A stretch of 64,000 nt of DNA from Streptosporangium sandarakinum (GTDB lineage Bacteria > Actinomycetota > Actinomycetes > Streptosporangiales > Streptosporangiaceae), in NCBI RefSeq assembly GCF_013409935.1, contig NZ_JACCCO010000001.1:3038001-3102000 (forward strand), read 5' to 3'. Shown here one piece after another: positions 17,685 to 24,545 of this stretch (position 1 is its first letter; each line of letters opens with the position of its first letter). Made by a program: the position numbers and the translations under genes. Under the pieces are notes generated by a model, which was given only the letters and a program-made list of their open reading frames with translations, searched no databases and had not been told where the DNA came from.

Positions 17685-18647
17685 GTGAGCAACGATGAAA
17701 AGATGAGAACCAGACACCTTCTCCTGGCCATCGGCCTTGCCGCCGTCTGGGGCTTCAACTTCGTCGTCATGGAGGCGGGGCTGCGCCACTTCCCGCCGTT
17801 GCTCTTCGTGACGCTGCGGTTCGCCCTGGCGGCCTTCCCGGCGCTGCTGTTCGCCGGAGGTCCCGGTGTGCCGTGGCGGCGGGTCCTGGTCGCCGGGGCC
17901 ACACTCGGCGTCGCGCAGTACAGCCTCCTGCTGCTGGGCATGCGAGCCGGCATGCCCGCCGGCCTGACGTCGATCGTCGTCCAGGCCCAGGCGGTGTTCA
18001 CCGTGGTCCTGGCCGTGTTCCTGCTGAAGGAGCGGATCACCGCGCGACGGGTCGCCGGCCTCGGCGTCGCGTTCGCCGGGCTGGTGCTGATCGGCGTGGA
18101 CCTGGGCGGCGAGGGCGGCCCGATCGGCGCCTTCCTCCTGGTCGTCGGCGGCGCGTTCGGCTGGGGTCTGGGCAACATCGCGGTGCGGAAGGCGGCGCCG
18201 CCCAGTTCCCTGCGGTTCATGATCTGGCTGAGCGCGGTGGCGGCCGTACCCATGTTCGGCCTGTCACTGCTGGTCGAGGGCGTCCCCCAGGTGCGGCTCT
18301 CCACCGAGGGCGTGCTGGCCGTCCTGTACGTCGCGCTGCTCGCCACCCTCGGCGGCTTCGGGGTCTGGGGCTTCCTGCTCAAGAGGTACGACGCGTCCGT
18401 CGTCGCGCCCTACAGCCTGCTCGTCCCGGTCTTCGGCATGTCCTCGGCCCTTCTGGTCACCGGGGAACCGATCTCCCCGATGAAGCTCGCCGCCGCCGTA
18501 CTGATCATCTCCGGAGTCCTGTACGCGGGCGCCCGCCCACGCCGGAGGGCTGTTCCCGGCGAAGCTTCCGGCGGGGTCCCCGGCGGGGCGGGACGGCGGG
18601 ACGGTGACCGGCCCCGCGCGGGCAGCACCGCTCCCACCGGGGGATAG
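17685..18647 (+). CDS. EamA/DMT family transporter
   Basis: This 320-aa drug/metabolite transporter has ten predicted helices in two EamA repeats; the first begins 'LLLAIGLAAVWGFNFVVMEA' and the second near residue 145. It probably exports a small metabolite or amino acid. GTG 17685 is taken as start: an AT-rich -10 candidate ends about five bases before it, implying a near-leaderless message; ATG 17703 is possible. The last ~40 residues (after LYAGARPRRR) are a Gly/Arg/Pro tail outside the family. Confidence 0.87.
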   Translation: MSNDEKMRTRHLLLAIGLAAVWGFNFVVMEAGLRHFPPLLFVTLRFALAAFPALLFAGGPGVPWRRVLVAGATLGVAQYSLLLLGMRAGMPAGLTSIVVQAQAVFTVVLAVFLLKERITARRVAGLGVAFAGLVLIGVDLGGEGGPIGAFLLVVGGAFGWGLGNIAVRKAAPPSSLRFMIWLSAVAAVPMFGLSLLVEGVPQVRLSTEGVLAVLYVALLATLGGFGVWGFLLKRYDASVVAPYSLLVPVFGMSSALLVTGEPISPMKLAAAVLIISGVLYAGARPRRRAVPGEASGGVPGGAGRRDGDRPRAGSTAPTGG

Positions 18648-18763
18648 CCGGTACGGCCCCGCTGTGGCCACTGATGGTTCCTGACCGGCCAGGCCGGTGT
18701 TTGTTCGGGTGTTCCGGCCGTTCAGGCTGGGGATTTTCCCGCTTTTTAGGGTGTTTCCCCAGT

Positions 18764-19115
18764 CTTAGGCGGGTCGGTGGTCGCCGTGCCGGTCGTTTGT
18801 GCGCGCTGCGGTGGGTGGGTGTTCCGGCCGGCGTTGTGGCCGGGCTCTGGTGGTCTCCGGCCTCCGGCCTGGCCTCGGGCGCGACGGTTGCCGGCGTTTC
18901 GAAGCCGGCCGGAACACCCACCCACCTCCGCGCCATGACTTGCCCGGCCGTACGGCCCGCCCGCCGTAGTCGCTCCCTTTCCGCCCGGCCCACGACCCTC
19001 ACCGACGCTGAAGCCACCCTGCTTCCCCGCCCGGGGCGGGCCGCCGTAGCCTTGCGGCCACACTGACAGGGGAGAGCGCAGGGCCGGGCGCCGTAGCCGC
19101 TCCCTTTCGGACCGC
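18764..19115 (-). repeat. 352-bp repeat element, copy A
   Basis: This stretch, read on the minus strand, matches 21933-22284 on the plus strand at roughly 85% by eye with the same total length. It holds three GCTACGGCG-type modules and a perfect 23-bp inverted repeat (arms 18810-18832 and 18904-18926, core GGGTGTTCCGGCCGG) around exactly 71 bp. Its open frames run into both arms and show no start signals. It fills most of the 18648-19164 gap; the remaining left part is GC-poor with no gene. Confidence 0.85.
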
Positions 19116-19164
19116 TCACGGTTCCCGATGCCGCTGAAGCGCCCGGTTGCGGTCGGCCAGAGCC

Positions 19165-19506
19165 TCAGGGACGGGAGAGGGTGGAGAGACCCCACAGCTC
19201 GGCGATGCGGCCGTCCCGTACCCGGAAGAACTCCATCATCGCGGGAGGCTTGTCCGCCGGGGTTCCGTGCAGGGTCGTGCGGACGGCGACCCCGTCTCCG
19301 TCAGAGAGCATGTCCTCGACGAGGATCCTGAGGCCGGGAAACGTCGCGTGCATCCCGGCCCAGGCCTTCATGACGCTCTCGATACCGACGGTGCCCAGAG
19401 GGTGGCTCACGAAGTCCACCGAGAAGATCGTCTTGGCGGCCGCGACGTCACGGGTGTTGAACGCCTCGTACATGCGGTGCGCGAGAACCTTCGCGTCGTC
19501 TGTCAT
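19165..19506 (-). CDS. SnoaL-like (NTF2 fold) protein
   Basis: This 113-aa protein has an NTF2-like fold: 'HRMYEAFNTRDVAAAKTIFS' at the N-terminus and 'MMEFFRVRDGRIAELWGL' at the C-terminus, as in SnoaL-like polyketide cyclase relatives. The substrate is unknown. ATG 19504-19506 is chosen because GGAG lies eight bases upstream; a GTG overlapping the MarR stop (19515) would add three residues. It is the second gene of a MarR-controlled pair. Confidence 0.82.
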   Translation of the reverse strand: MTDDAKVLAHRMYEAFNTRDVAAAKTIFSVDFVSHPLGTVGIESVMKAWAGMHATFPGLRILVEDMLSDGDGVAVRTTLHGTPADKPPAMMEFFRVRDGRIAELWGLSTLSRP

Positions 19507-19511
19507 CTGCT

Positions 19512-19955
19512 TCACTCCTGTTCGGAGGGTATGCGTGCCACATTGGCGCGCAGGCGGCCGAGGACCCGCAGCACGGTCTCCCGCTCCTCGGCGGTGACGC
19601 CGTCGAGGAGCCGCACCTGGTAGTCCTGGTGGGCACGCGCCAGCCCGGCGGCGGTCCGTTCGCCTCGGGGGGTCAGCGCGGCCAGGGTGTACCGGTTGTC
19701 CTCCGGGTCGATGCGGCGGCTGACCAGTCCCTCGGCCTCGAACTCCTTGATGAGGCGTGTGACGCTCGCCCCGTCGATCGCGAGGGCGTGGCGCAGGTCG
19801 CTGTGGCTCGTCTCACCGTTTCGCCACAGCCGCATCAGTGTCTGGAGACGGTGCCCGTTCATTCCCACATGGCGGGAGAACGCCTGCCGCACCTCGGCAC
19901 AGCCGCCCATCAGGTCCTGGAAGAACCTGTCCTCGGGGGTTTGGAGCCGGTCCAC
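19512..19955 (-). CDS. MarR family transcriptional regulator
   Basis: This 147-aa winged-helix regulator has 'SHSDLRHALAIDGASVTRLI' (helix-turn-helix) and the wing 'VSRRIDPEDNRYTLAALTPR' near residues 70-105. GTG 19953-19955 is preforred for the AAGGAGG element seven bases upstream; in-frame codons upstream lie in the promoter. Its promoter carries a palindrome between -35 and -10, so autoregulation is likely, together with the SnoaL-like gene. Confidence 0.9.
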   Translation of the reverse strand: MDRLQTPEDRFFQDLMGGCAEVRQAFSRHVGMNGHRLQTLMRLWRNGETSHSDLRHALAIDGASVTRLIKEFEAEGLVSRRIDPEDNRYTLAALTPRGERTAAGLARAHQDYQVRLLDGVTAEERETVLRVLGRLRANVARIPSEQE

Positions 19956-19980
19956 GGCCACCTCCTTGGTCCGATCTTCT

Positions 19981-20009
19981 ATTGAAGGGATCAAGAGTTG
20001 ATATGTCAA
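19981..20009 (-). promoter_or_regulatory. Promoter of the MarR-SnoaL pair with internal operator
   Basis: On the minus strand TTGACA (20009-20004), a 17-bp spacer and TTCAAT (19986-19981) form a good vegetative promoter. The spacer contains ATCAA-CTC-TTGAT, a palindrome suited to a MarR dimer. The predicted transcription start lies about 20 bases before the GTG. Confidence 0.75.
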
Positions 20010-20046
20010 AGGGTTTGGGCGAGGGACGGCGAAGGCGGCTCGGGGC

Positions 20047-21360
20047 GTGACTACCCTGGAGGGCGTGAGCCGTACTGAGAAGTCCGAGGACCTGTTCGCC
20101 CGCGCCCGCGAGATCGTCCCGGGAGGTGTCAACTCCCCGGTCCGGGCCTTCGGCGCCGTCGGCGGGACCCCCCGCTTCATGGTGTCCGGTCAGGGCCCCT
20201 ACATCACCGACGCGGACGGCAACCGCTACGTGGACCTCGTCTGCTCATGGGGCCCGATGATCCTCGGCCACCGCCACCCGGCCGTGGTGGAGGCCCTGCA
20301 GGAGGCGCTGGCGGGCGGCACCTCCTTCGGTACGGCGACGCCCGGTGAGGTCGAGCTCGCCGAGGAGATCGTCGACCGGGTCGCGCCGGTGGAGAAGGTC
20401 CGCCTGGTCAGCTCCGGCACCGAGGCCACCATGTCCGCCGTACGGCTGGCCCGCGGCTTCACCGGCCGGTCCAAGGTCGTCAAGTTCGCCGGCTGCTACC
20501 ACGGCCACGTCGACGCCCTGCTCGCCTCGGCCGGGTCCGGCCTGGTCACCTTCGGTCTGCCCGACACCCCCGGCGTCACCGGCGCATCGGCCGCCGACAC
20601 CGTCGTGCTGCCCTACAACTCCGTCGAGGCGGTGACCGAGGCGTTCAGCGCCTTCGGCGACGAGATCGCCTGCGTCATCACCGAGGCGTGCCCGGCCAAC
20701 ATGGGCGTCGTCCCGCCCCTCGACGGGTTCAACGCCACGCTCCGCGAGCTGTGCACCGCGCACGGGGCCCTGCTGATCATCGACGAGGTGCTCACCGGGT
20801 TCCGCGTCTCGGGGGCCGGCTGGTACGGCCTCGACCCGGTGGACGCCGACCTGATGACCTTCGGCAAGGTCATGGGCGGCGGGCTGCCGGCCGCGGCGTT
20901 CGGCGGCCGGGCCGATGTGATGGCCCACCTCGCCCCGGAGGGCCCGGTCTACCAGGCGGGCACGCTGTCCGGTAACCCGCTGGCCTGCGCCGCGGGCCTG
21001 GCGACCCTGCGCGGCTGCGACGACGAGGTCTACGACCGGATCGACGCCGCCGCCCTGGTGATCGGCCGAGCCGCCGCCGACGCCCTCGCCGCCGCCGGGG
21101 TTCCGCACCGCCTGCAGCGCGCCGGCAACCTGTTCTCGATCTTCTTCACCGAGGATCGGGTCACGGACTTCGCCACGGCCCAGACGCAGAACACCGCCGC
21201 CTACCGCGCGTTCTTCCATGCCATGCTCGACCAGGGCGTCTACCTGCCGCCGTCGGCCTACGAGGCGTGGTTCCTGTCGGCCGCCCACGACGACGAGGCC
21301 CTGACCCGCGTGGCCGAGGCCCTTCCCCTCGCCGCCAAGGCCGCCGCCCAGGCCGGCTGA
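20047..21360 (+). CDS. hemL: Glutamate-1-semialdehyde 2,1-aminomutase
   Basis: HemL (437 aa) converts glutamate-1-semialdehyde to 5-aminolevulinate, the step after HemA. It is a PLP class III aminotransferase: '[16 protein letters not shown]' near residue 25, '[20 protein letters not shown]' near residue 120, '[11 protein letters not shown]' near 240, and the PLP lysine in '[18 protein letters not shown]' near 277. GTG 20047 gives the longest form; GTG 20065 (VSRTEKSED) better matches typical N-termini but its GGAGG is only two bases away. A hairpin overlaps the stop codon. Confidence 0.95.
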
Positions 21361-21380
21361 GGACCGTTCCTCAGCCGGCC
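21351..21380 (+). terminator. Terminator hairpin overlapping the hemL stop
   Basis: GGCCGGCTGAGGA (21351-21363) and TCCTCAGCCGGCC (21368-21380) form a perfect 13-bp stem with a CCGT loop. The hemL TGA lies within the left arm. It sits before the convergent Uma2 remnant and can serve both strands. Confidence 0.75.
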
Positions 21381-21416
21381 CACGGCGATTCCGTCGAACA
21401 GGCGGGCCAGGCCCTT

Positions 21417-21698
21417 CTACGCGTCCAGGTCGATGTCGATGGGGAAGGGCACCGGGACGGTCAGACGCCCGTGGTGGATGCCGGTGAGCCCGTACGCGCC
21501 GGTGGCCGGATCGAGCTCGTAGACGTATTCGACGTGTTCGAAGAAGTCGGGCTCGCCGTTGGGTCCCTCCGCCGGAAGACGATCGAGGTCGTCGGCGGTC
21601 CATCCCCAGGGAGGTGGAGAAGGCCAGTACTCCAGGGCGCTGCTCACGTCGGTCACCGTAACATCGTCTCCGTCACCGGGTGTGTTCATTCGGACCAT
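21417..21698 (-). pseudogene. Uma2-family remnant with internal deletion
   Basis: This 93-aa frame starts with a Uma2-like N-terminus ('PPPWGWTADDLDRLPAEGP') and switches at about residue 57 to a Uma2-like C-terminus ('ELDPATGAYGLTGIHHGRLT', then PVPFPIDIDL). The ~100-residue nuclease core that should lie between is absent, so the reading frame survives but the catalytic domain does not. ATG 21696-21698 has GGAGGG eight bases upstream. The assignment comes from remembered family ends and needs an alignment. Confidence 0.55.
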
Positions 21699-21932
21699 CT
21701 CCGTTGCCCTCCCTCCATTCTCTCCCCTTCGCCTCCGATCTCTTCACCTCATGACCGTTACACCGCTCCCCCTCCCGCCGTCCACGTTCCCGCGGCGAAT
21801 CCGTGGGGGCCTGGCGCTCCACCTTTTCCCGCTCCCCTCGGCGTTCCCACTCCCCGGGTGGAGACCGAGAGCGGAAAAGGAGAGGGAGCCATGACCGATC
21901 CGAAGGAAGAGTGACTACGGCGGGCACCATGC

Positions 21933-22284
21933 GCGGTCCGGAGGAGAGCGGCTACGGCGCCCGGCCCTGCGCTCTCCCCTGCCAGTGTGGCCGCAAGGCT
22001 ACGGCGACCCGCCCCGGCAACCAGCGATAGGGACGCTTCAGCGTCGGCGAGGGCCGTGGGCGGGCGGAAAGGGAGAAGCTACGGCGGGCGGGCCGTACGA
22101 CCGAAGCAGTCTTGGCGCGGAGGTGGGTGGGTGTTCCGGCCGGCTTCAAAACGCCAGAAACCGTCGCGCCCGAGGCCAGGCCGAAGGCCGGTCGGAACCA
22201 GACGGCAACCACAGCGCCGGCCGGAACACCCACCCACCGCAGCGCGCACAAACGACCACCCCGGCGACCACCGACCCGCCCAAG
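21933..22284 (+). repeat. 352-bp repeat element, copy B
   Basis: This is the inverted partner of 18764-19115, equal in total length. The 23-bp arms lie at 22122-22144 and 22216-22238 and are identical to those of copy A, again 71 bp apart. The three CTACGGCG modules are at about 21952, 22000 and 22080. Together with the riboswitch region it occupies most of the 21699-22429 gap; the first ~230 bp of that gap show no gene. Confidence 0.85.
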
Positions 22285-22429
22285 AAGGAGAAACGCCCCA
22301 ACGGGAAAAGCCCCGACCCGCGCGACCCCAGGGGAAACACCCGCCGCGGCACGCCGGTGAATCCCCTGCGCATCGTGATTCGCCGGATGGACGTGCGTCG
22401 TCCCGGTTGGGTGCCCTACTCTGGGGTGG

Positions 22430-22549
22430 CGAGGGGAGTACTTCCCAAGAGCCGACCCGGTCAGTACGGACGTTCCACGACGTCCCCGGGCGGTCGCCCG
22501 CGCGAAGCGGGTGAAGGAGACCTCGAACGACCAAGCGCGTTCGAGGAGG
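22430..22549 (+). ncRNA. Manganese (yybP-ykoY) riboswitch controlling the TerC gene
   Basis: The aptamer spans 22430-22525. Helix P1 is CGAGG (22430-22434) with CCTCG (22521-22525), directly flanking the conserved GGAGTA and GAAGGAGA internal-loop strands of the yybP-ykoY class. An alternative 9-bp stem pairs CCTCGAACG (22521-22529) with CGTTCGAGG (22538-22546). That stem uses the P1 3' strand and buries the AGGAGG Shine-Dalgarno (22544-22549), so the two structures exclude each other: manganese binding should free the ribosome site. The aptamer class is established; the platform is read from the sequence. Confidence 0.88.
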
Positions 22550-22553
22550 TCCC

Positions 22554-23765
22554 ATGCCCGTCATGTCCGCTGTACTCTCGATGCCCGCCGTTCATTCGCC
22601 ACCCGTGGCGTTCCCGGCGGCCACCGTCTTCGAGACATCCACCGCACTCCCGGCCCCTGCCTTCGACGGCTCCGCCGCGCTCCCGGCTCCCGTCTTCGAG
22701 GGATCCGCCGCGCCGCAGGCCGCCGCCCTCGGAGCATCCGGCGCGCCGTCCGGCGCCGATCCGCTCTCGGCGGGTCTCCAGACGATCGGTTCCCCGCAGC
22801 TGTGGGGGATCAGCGTCGCCGTCCTCGTGTTGCTGCTGGCGCTGGATTTCGTGCTGACCCGGCGCCCGCACGAGGTGCGGATGCGTGAGGCCGTCGCCTG
22901 GTCCGTCTTCTACCTGGCGCTGCCGTTGCTCTTCGGGGTCTATCTCTGGATGGCCTTCGGCTCCGCGCAGGCGGTGGAGTTCTTCACCGGCTACGTGGTG
23001 GAGAAGTCGCTGTCGGTGGACAACCTGTTCGTGTTCATGCTGTTGCTGGCCGCCTTCGCGGTCCCGACCGCGCTGGCCCAGCGGGTCCTGCTGTACGGCA
23101 TCATCGGCGCCCTGGTGCTGCGGGCGATCTTCATCGCGCTCGGGGCGGCCGTCCTGCAGAGCGGCACGTGGGCGTTTCTGCTGTTCGGCGCGATCCTGAT
23201 CTTCACCGCCGTGAAGATCATCCGGGAGGCGCTGAGCGACAAGGAGCAGCACGTCGACGTGTCGTCGATGCGGGCGGTCCGCCTGGTGCGGCGCTTCATG
23301 CCGGTCACCGACGACTACCGCGGCTCCCGGCTGGTCGTCCACGAGAACGGCCGCCGTGCCCTCACCCCGCTCGCGCTGGCCATCGTGGCCGTCTTCGCCA
23401 CCGACATCGTCTTCGCCGTCGACTCGGTGCCGGCGGTGTACGGCGTGACCGAGGACCCCTTCATCGTCTTCGCCACCAACGCCTTCGCCCTGCTGGGCCT
23501 GCGCGCTCTCTACTTCGTGCTGCTGGGCGTCCTGGCGAAGCTGCGTCACCTCAACCACGGTCTCGGCGTCATCCTGGCCTTCATCGGGGTCAAGCTGGTC
23601 CTGCACTGGGCGCACGGCGTCTGGACGTGGGTGCCGGAGGTGCCCACCCCGCTCTCGCTGGGGGTCATCGTCGTGGTCCTGGCCGTCGTCACCCTCACCA
23701 GCGTCCACGCCAACCGCCGCGACGCGCGGCTCTCCTCACCTGATGAACACGAATCTCATTCGTGA
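22554..23765 (+). CDS. TerC/Alx family integral membrane protein, probable manganese exporter
   Basis: This 403-aa TerC-family protein probably exports manganese, since it sits behind a manganese riboswitch as other TerC/Alx members do. After a ~75-residue Ala/Pro-rich N-terminal extension there are about nine helices. Family motifs include 'EKSLSVDNLFVFMLL' near residue 150 and 'FATDIVFAVDSVPAVYGVTE' near residue 280, whose paired acidic residues lie in the metal path. The Shine-Dalgarno is part of the riboswitch. The extension is unusual, and an internal start is not excluded. Confidence 0.9.
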   Translation: MPVMSAVLSMPAVHSPPVAFPAATVFETSTALPAPAFDGSAALPAPVFEGSAAPQAAALGASGAPSGADPLSAGLQTIGSPQLWGISVAVLVLLLALDFVLTRRPHEVRMREAVAWSVFYLALPLLFGVYLWMAFGSAQAVEFFTGYVVEKSLSVDNLFVFMLLLAAFAVPTALAQRVLLYGIIGALVLRAIFIALGAAVLQSGTWAFLLFGAILIFTAVKIIREALSDKEQHVDVSSMRAVRLVRRFMPVTDDYRGSRLVVHENGRRALTPLALAIVAVFATDIVFAVDSVPAVYGVTEDPFIVFATNAFALLGLRALYFVLLGVLAKLRHLNHGLGVILAFIGVKLVLHWAHGVWTWVPEVPTPLSLGVIVVVLAVVTLTSVHANRRDARLSSPDEHESHS

Positions 23766-23873: not shown

Positions 23874-24545
23874 TCAGCGGACGCTGACGTCGGTGAGCAG
23901 GTTCTCGGATTTGTCACCCGTTCGGCGAGCTTGACGCGGCGCTCTCCAGTAACGGTCCATGGAAATCATCGCGATGCCGACCAGCACCACGGCTCCCGAG
24001 ACCATCCAGGAATGCGGGACATTCACGTCGAGTTTGGGGATCGCCCATGCCGAGACTTCTCCATCGACGACGCCGAAGACGTAAACCGGTATGGCAGCGG
24101 CGAGGGGGAGCACCCATGCGAGCCGTCTGCCGAACATCCTTCCCGAGACACAGGCGACACCGAGCCACCAGAGCAAGTTCCGCAACGCCGCCGGAACGGT
24201 CTCCACCGCTCCTCCCAACGACAAGCCGACCGTCAGCCCCACCACGGAGGAAGCCGTCAGTACCCCAAGTTGCTCCAGGTCTATACGGCGTACCCGCCGA
24301 GCGGCCCCCGCTTCGAATCCCGCCATCGTACTGTGCAAGCTCACCACGATGACGCAGGCGAAGGGGATGGGAAGCAGCACCGCAACCGGTACCGGCGTGC
24401 GGAGGTGGTCGAACGCCTGAGGGAAGGACATGTCCAGCCGTCCCCACAGCCCGGCAGCAACGGAGAGCACGAGGAGAGCGCCGAGCATCGGCCTGATCCT
24501 CCGAGTTTCCATGAAGGAACGCAAAGCACCGAAACCCTCAACCAT
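23874..24545 (-). CDS. ABC transporter-associated membrane protein
   Basis: This 223-aa protein has about six hydrophobic helices, beginning 'MLGALLVLSVAAGLWGRL', and no recognised catalytic motif. Its ATG (24543-24545) lies within the last bases of the upstream permease gene (8-bp overlap), so it is the last gene of a coupled three-gene set with an ABC ATPase. It is probably the second membrane subunit. Similarity to a named family was not recognised. Confidence 0.7.
   Translation of the reverse strand: MVEGFGALRSFMETRRIRPMLGALLVLSVAAGLWGRLDMSFPQAFDHLRTPVPVAVLLPIPFACVIVVSLHSTMAGFEAGAARRVRRIDLEQLGVLTASSVVGLTVGLSLGGAVETVPAALRNLLWWLGVACVSGRMFGRRLAWVLPLAAAIPVYVFGVVDGEVSAWAIPKLDVNVPHSWMVSGAVVLVGIAMISMDRYWRAPRQARRTGDKSENLLTDVSVR

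Follow-up and report, generated by a model that had tools for sequence, protein, structure and literature searches.

Outward-facing pairs of a hairpin-forming repeat bracket variable gene blocks at shared chromosomal sites in Streptosporangium

Miniature inverted-repeat transposable elements (MITEs) and foldback transposons carry long terminal inverted repeats, internal repeated modules and a variable middle. Invertible segments are blocks that flip between inverted repeats, and the minimal mobile elements of Neisseria are alternative cassettes that lie between conserved genes and are exchanged by transformation and recombination in the homologous flank genes. Here we describe a repeat of about 400 bp found as two inverted copies, A and B, in a stretch of 64,000 nucleotides from Streptosporangium sandarakinum (contig NZ_JACCCO010000001.1, positions 3,038,001 to 3,102,000; hereafter "the window", numbered from its first letter), where they bracket a small block containing a class-III aminotransferase gene, which we take to be hemL. 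REPINs, or GTAG- and CGTC-tagged dimers of repetitive extragenic palindromic (REP) sequences, consist of extragenic inverted arms around a spacer, with a predicted hairpin and compensatory changes (PMC3116915, PMC3733652).

The element resembles REPINs in its two inverted arms with a spacer, its hairpin and its compensatory changes. The REPINs described there are, however, short hairpins, whereas here two copies of about 400 bp usually stand outward-facing around genes; the dispersed unit is not a single hairpin doublet, though single copies exist, and the presence of the element does not track that of Y1 transposases. Terminal inverted repeats at both ends of the unit, modules and a variable middle recall MITEs and foldback transposons, but no target-site duplication was recognised at the junctions compared, a parent transposase was not found in the cargo examined, the element sites are common to several species (once to different genera) and the cargo consists of ordinary chromosomal-type genes. 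As in the minimal mobile elements, different cassettes occur between the same conserved genes; here, in contrast, the cassette is enclosed by a structured repeat that is found at many sites of one genome. Finally, a bracketed block flips between inverted repeats as in invertible segments, although a dedicated invertase was not found in the cargo examined and the inversions are differences between species. No description of the element was found in the literature searched, which mostly excluded subscription papers, so that an earlier description is possible; it is apparently a previously undescribed hairpin-forming repeat of Streptosporangium and its relatives.

Structure and distribution of the element

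Using copy A as query and scoring the best 40 candidates per genome, we found 14 full-length copies (83-100% identity) in the S. sandarakinum genome itself (G000, 7.65 Mb in four contigs), besides short tail and arm matches. All 14 fall into exactly seven outward-facing pairs. In each, the left copy is on the minus strand and its partner to the right on the plus strand; the module ends described below thus point inward, the hairpin and tail outward. The seven blocks measure 1-8 kb and hold unrelated accessory-looking genes, a regulator often being among them. Their cargo sets are MerR; MerR-TipAS; SnoaL, MarR and hemL (the block of the window); DUF4440 with a hydrolase, PadR, TetR and P450; GNAT with a protein of two ABC-transporter domains; a GDPD-like protein; and MarR, YceI, ketoacyl synthase, SDR and others. 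An initial annotation, made from the sequence of the window alone, had considered that the two copies might be an isolated old duplication showing no covariation; the 14 full-length copies in seven pairs rule out such a duplication, and covariation was found.

Each element runs from an inner array of CTACGGCG modules through a hairpin (arms of about 29 nt with about 70 nt between them) to an outer tail. As annotated, copies A (minus strand) and B (plus strand) indeed match as inverted repeats along most of their length of about 400 bp, 18763-18990 matching 22058-22285 (228 nt, 87%) and 19031-19127 matching 21921-22017 (97 nt, 92%). The annotated 23-bp arms are likewise identical in sequence in both copies and spaced by 71 bp (18810-18832/18904-18926 in A, 22122-22144/22216-22238 in B). 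With mismatches allowed, each arm extends to 30 nt at 93% complementarity, and a 20-nt arm piece (at most three mismatches) occurs in the window at just these four places, with 0 expected from 100 shuffles. Other details had to be amended. Three CTACGGCG modules had been counted per copy, which is correct for A and for B as first delimited, but B has a fourth at 21915, on the gene-block side and just beyond that limit. Alignment with other copies makes the element longer than the 352 bp originally assigned (Table 1), with a ragged outer end due to the repeated tail units of many copies. Nor does the 71-bp interior drift freely, as it encloses a near-invariant GGCC-loop-GGCC mini-hairpin and further invariant columns.

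Structural constraint on the hairpin, also proposed at the outset, is borne out by our alignment A1, in which 99.4% of the cells in the 29-pair structure are standard pairs. Compensatory changes occur in seven of the 29 pairs (31 cells), against a shuffle mean of 2.7 pairs and with none of 500 shuffles reaching seven, a comparison to be read with the tool's own warning that related sequences may exceed such shuffles; sliding the partner by 1-3 columns abolished the signal. The cores fold far better than shuffled sequence, copy A as RNA and copy B as DNA (z values in Table 1). One-sided departures within the arms are U-G on the aligned strand in eight cells and C-A or A-C, the wobble of the other strand, in five, and no strand is therefore clearly favoured. 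The covariation shows that the arms are kept complementary by selection or by conversion between arms, and cannot distinguish an RNA structure from a DNA structure.

A covariance model of the 131-nt core (R1, built on 34 sequences) detected the element at E<=1e-6 in 13 of the 16 Streptosporangium genomes, and the 108 main matches in these 13 genomes agree with the early view of a dispersed, mobile-element-like family. The three element-free genomes (G003, G010 and G015) are scattered on the genome tree. Three wider draws were scored with at most 11 candidates per genome: at family level, 46 of 297 genomes and 13 of 68 genera were positive at E<=1e-4 (the 13 Streptosporangium genomes included), the order-level draw gave 37 of 297, and the class-level draw 4 of 296, all in the same family, the number of drawn genomes outside the family not being established. 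Blastn at E 1e-5 gave no match to the element in plasmid and phage record collections, which speaks against a plasmid- or phage-borne repeat, and an Rfam search extended to E 5 matched no family to the elements, which speaks against a known RNA family. An exact-pattern scan of contigs returned 21 stretches, 20 of them in named Streptosporangium species. The other, on a contig of a Caenispirillum metagenome-assembled genome, is a single arm-pattern match (L082 5872-5899), perhaps due to chance.

Pairs, shared sites and inversions

In the 13 positive Streptosporangium genomes, 28 of the 31 pairs of neighbouring copies at most 15 kb apart face outward, one faces inward and two have the same direction (counted on the 108 main matches, with reverse-strand shadow matches and two weak ones of 72.7 and 56.9 bits excluded). 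The idea of a mobile MITE-like element is supported as regards a dispersed family and not supported as regards a free-standing MITE, since the usual unit is an outward pair around genes at shared sites. We gathered 40 such blocks, namely the seven of S. sandarakinum, 21 other outward pairs of the genus within 15 kb and 12 picked among the family-draw matches listed; because they were chosen as pairs, they do not measure how common single copies are. The sole inward-facing neighbour pair (L122) was excluded from the neighbourhood and spacing counts. Core-to-core distances range from 386 bp to 9.3 kb (median 2.0 kb), six blocks are without a called gene, and three blocks of another genus (L114, L117 and L118) have two elements per end, in mirror order.

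Larger brackets were also encountered. At the sixth of the seven sites (site 6), the pair of G001 encloses 60 kb, and G011 has two outward-facing copies 49 kb apart with no third copy between them (L143-L145, C1:5737042-5786199), which we infer to be a single bracket. The 60-kb bracket contains a group II intron reverse transcriptase/maturase (L139 10698-11969). LANC-like/DUF4135 and asparagine-synthase-like genes are present in the 49-kb stretch, which suggests a lanthipeptide-type cluster inside an element slot.

The blocks have a characteristic neighbourhood, described here with gene calls from a simple codon-usage script and no published gene finder. Twenty-eight of the 40 blocks lie between convergent genes, 11 between genes of the same direction and one between divergent genes, whereas only 27 of the 221 other adjacent gene pairs in the 40 loci are convergent (Fisher p about 1.5e-13). 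The 3' end is turned toward the element in 67 of 80 flank genes and in 27 of 34 outermost cargo genes (17 blocks with at least two called genes); at 17 single-copy loci, this is the case for 12 outer and 14 inner neighbours.

Flank proteins place an element at all seven G000 sites in at least one other species, and at six of the seven in species besides the close relative G009. The pair at site 6, flanked by GSDH-domain and VanW-domain genes, is present in G000, G001, G005, G008, G009 and G011 and in G124, which belongs to another genus; sites 2, 3, 5 and 7 have pairs in 4, 4, 3 and 5 genomes, respectively. Within these shared brackets, the cargo varies widely. At site 6, no cargo protein of G008 or G124 has a counterpart in the other blocks at the thresholds applied, and the bracket of G005 is without a called gene; G005 and G008 are about 96% identical in the flanks and have only fragments in common inside the bracket. 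The site 2 cargo of G001 and G011 lacks close homologues in the corresponding blocks of G000 and G009, and at site 7 a ketoacyl synthase is found in four of five genomes while most other cargo differs, except in the close pair G000/G009. Being partly common and partly different at shared sites, the cargo is therefore in part old and vertically kept and in part replaced. G004 has an empty site 6: both convergent flank genes are present, with 172 bp between their aligned ends, and the element was not found. This genome nests on the tree with G001, G005, G008 and G011, all four of which have the site 6 block; the whole block was therefore lost in G004 or gained more than once.

Inversion of the block in the window, anticipated by the initial annotation, is supported by comparison between species. 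Relative to the LysR/EamA left flank, hemL is flipped only in G000, where it lies between two elements, and has the opposite orientation in all 14 other resolved genomes, seven of which (G005, G007, G010-G013 and G015) matched only the LysR part of the flank at the DNA level; G009 was excluded because its contigs break at elements. The TerC gene, which lies outside copy B in G000, has its best match in the 14 other genomes on a different contig or at least about 380 kb from hemL, and the DNA to the right of TerC (window 23935-24500) is 150 bp from hemL in G004. SnoaL-MarR relatives are hundreds of kb away from hemL in G001, G007 and G011. A clean empty hemL slot between the sisters G005 and G008 was considered and ruled out, G008 having a truncated copy there. 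The MerR-TipAS block is also inverted between L032 and L099, the inverted alignment spanning one whole element into its outer part, and the GDPD gene of G011 is inverted relative to G000, G009 and G001. Other common cargo has kept its orientation (L035/L097, L036/L101, L037/L100, L037/L092, L037/L106 and L093/L107). Judged from these alignments, recombination between inverted copies would be the simplest cause of the three inversions.

The elements themselves resemble each other most within a genome. For 95 elements, the nearest relative lies in the same locus, mostly as the partner copy, in 51 cases, in a different block of that genome in 26 and at the same site of a different genome in 10; the remaining 8 fall into none of these classes. 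This within-genome similarity, combined with the age of the shared sites, speaks for gene conversion between the copies; a recent spread inside genomes would produce a similar picture.

Origin and role of the paired elements

We propose, giving it roughly even chances, that the paired elements are the ends of an old non-autonomous transposon-like unit and now act as recombinogenic brackets around gene-turnover slots. The pair would represent the terminal inverted repeats (TIRs) of a unit that once inserted between the facing 3' ends of neighbouring genes. Homologous recombination between copies would now flip the blocks and homogenise the repeats, and the same process probably helps cargo to be swapped or deleted; each pair would consequently be a long-lived gene-turnover slot. 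The hairpin may be the feature recognised by a predicted transposase or recombinase, as single-stranded or cruciform DNA. If this proposal is true, the element marks the points of entry and turnover of accessory genes, possibly of secondary-metabolism clusters too, in one actinomycete family, and model R1 provides a computable marker for locating such slots. These loci are a natural case of long structured inverted repeats persisting at shared sites across many species, and offer a way to test whether bacterial blocks are inverted and their cargo exchanged through the action of hairpin-forming repeats.

Several observations weigh against this proposal. At the site 6 junctions, compared by eye in six genomes with L121 of another genus included, no target-site duplication was recognised, and the outer ends are ragged. 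No transposase or recombinase recurs among 173 inter-compared proteins (a set that includes the flank genes of two long blocks). At site 6, nine further element-lacking genomes are also without the GSDH gene, so that G004 is the only clean empty site. The element-free G003 has about 2.8 kb between its EamA match and hemL, and the hemL slot therefore varies without the element; the cargo of L031 and L098 differs by about 0.67 kb inside the block, the elements not being involved. A homologous cargo gene at two sites is clear only once (L031/L089, 86% over 609 bp). Single copies occur, as at the 17 single-copy loci examined, two of these sites being common to the sister species G005 and G008, and three of the 31 neighbour pairs are not outward-facing (one inward, two same-direction). 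Some single copies may have a partner that is far off, too diverged or on another contig. A Pfam scan of 40 proteins, only part of the cargo, found a reverse transcriptase in one block and no recurring mobility gene.

Other explanations can be set beside the favoured one. In a more ambitious version, which we find rather unlikely, the paired hairpin repeats would be dedicated cassette sockets at which a predicted enzyme loads, flips and unloads blocks, from sub-kilobase ones to biosynthetic clusters, the hairpin also acting as an insulator. The main rival, which may be true alongside the favoured reading as well but which we also regard as fairly improbable, is a bidirectional terminator or insulator useful to the host: it would stop transcripts arriving from either side where genes converge, and accessory blocks would be isolated by the pair. 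The 3' ends turned toward the element, in flank and outermost cargo genes as well as at single copies, and the strong hairpin (z -6.9) argue for such a role. A near-symmetric terminator, however, needs no fixed polarity, yet 28 of 31 neighbours are outward; the element is far longer than an ordinary terminator, the empty junction of G004 manages without it, and the same neighbourhood would be expected if insertion took place away from promoters. An actively moving long-TIR transposon, MITE- or foldback-like, with its transposase supplied in trans and with repeated hot-spot insertions accounting for the shared sites, seems distinctly unlikely to us. Indeed, the GDPD protein of site 6 (about 79-82% identity) and the ketoacyl synthase of site 7 (83-86%) are common to different clades at protein identities close to those of the flank genes, which points to old, vertically kept blocks; a target-site duplication was not recognised and no transposase was found in the part examined. 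What speaks for active movement is the TIR-like pairing, the genome-specific copies, the patchy presence of site 6 on the tree and the existence of pairs with almost no genes, for instance L116, whose cores are 386 bp apart.

The two remaining candidates start from the hairpin itself. The extragenic inverted arms with their spacer and compensatory changes, as described for REPINs (PMC3116915), together with Y1 transposase matches in 14 of 16 genomes, could suggest a single-strand element moved by a Y1 transposase of the REP-associated tyrosine transposase (RAYT) or IS200 type. We consider this very unlikely: Y1_Tnp (RAYT and other kinds pooled) is missing in G004, which has one element, and present in the element-free G010 and G015, and this lack of correlation with element presence speaks against a RAYT/Y1 link. 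No Y1 match was located between the copies of any pair, and a REPIN unit is one hairpin, compared with two copies of about 400 bp around genes here. Least probable of all would be a gene for a structured non-coding RNA, duplicated on both sides of accessory genes, a reading that the arm covariation would fit; the elements have no Rfam match, the wobble cells (8 versus 5) clearly favour neither strand, and nearly all the structure sits in the arms.

Features of the window and minor observations

The features are listed in Table 1. The open reading frame (ORF) at 21417-21698, first read as an Uma2 remnant, has no Pfam match at E 0.001, and DNA from about 21528 to 21730, in the stretch of this ORF, is also present near hemL in other species.

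Table 1. Element copies and surrounding genes in the window (strand: +, forward; -, reverse;., not assigned)
Feature	Position	Strand	Basis and remarks
Element copy A, whole	18707..19127	-	Alignment with other copies; inner end near 19127, tail toward EamA gene
Element copy B, whole	21921..22314	+	Alignment with other copies; contig 3059921-3060314
Hairpin core A, 131 nt	18802..18932	-	Model R1, 118.8 bits; contig 3056802-3056932; RNA fold z -6.9
Hairpin core B, 131 nt	22116..22246	+	Model R1, 123.7 bits; contig 3060116-3060246; DNA fold z -6.8
Copy A arm 1	18803..18832	.	Inverted-repeat search
Copy A arm 2	18904..18933	.	Inverted-repeat search
Copy B arm 1	22115..22144	.	Inverted-repeat search
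Copy B arm 2	22216..22245	.	Inverted-repeat search
Copy A CTACGGCG modules, three	18959..19096	-	Matches at 18959, 19039, 19086
Copy B CTACGGCG modules, four	21915..22089	+	Matches at 21915, 21952, 21999, 22079
SnoaL-like gene, bracketed	19165..19515	-	Pfam PF12680/PF07366
MarR-family regulator, bracketed	19512..19961	-	Pfam PF01047
Class-III aminotransferase (presumably hemL), bracketed	20047..21360	+	Pfam PF00202; inverted versus other species (orientation comparison)
93-aa ORF, bracketed	21417..21698	-	Pfam scan; without Pfam family
EamA transporter, left flank	17703..18647	+	Pfam PF00892; 3' end toward copy A
TerC, right flank	22605..23765	+	Pfam PF03741; best match elsewhere in 14 other resolved genomes

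Three single copies (L125, L126 and L128), from three low-copy genomes, lie near a common flank gene set, with mostly different genes on the opposite side; in L125, a gene with a His_biosynth domain adjoins the copy. A MerR gene segment of about 610 bp occurs inside blocks at two different sites in two species (L031 6279-6886 and L089 8773-9380) and is missing, with a clean difference of about 0.67 kb, from the sister block L098; this segment may move by itself. Finally, a stretch of about 148 bp upstream of TerC (window 22412-22559), which has no match in Rfam, is 85-90% conserved before TerC in at least seven other Streptosporangium genomes and is possibly a leader or riboswitch.

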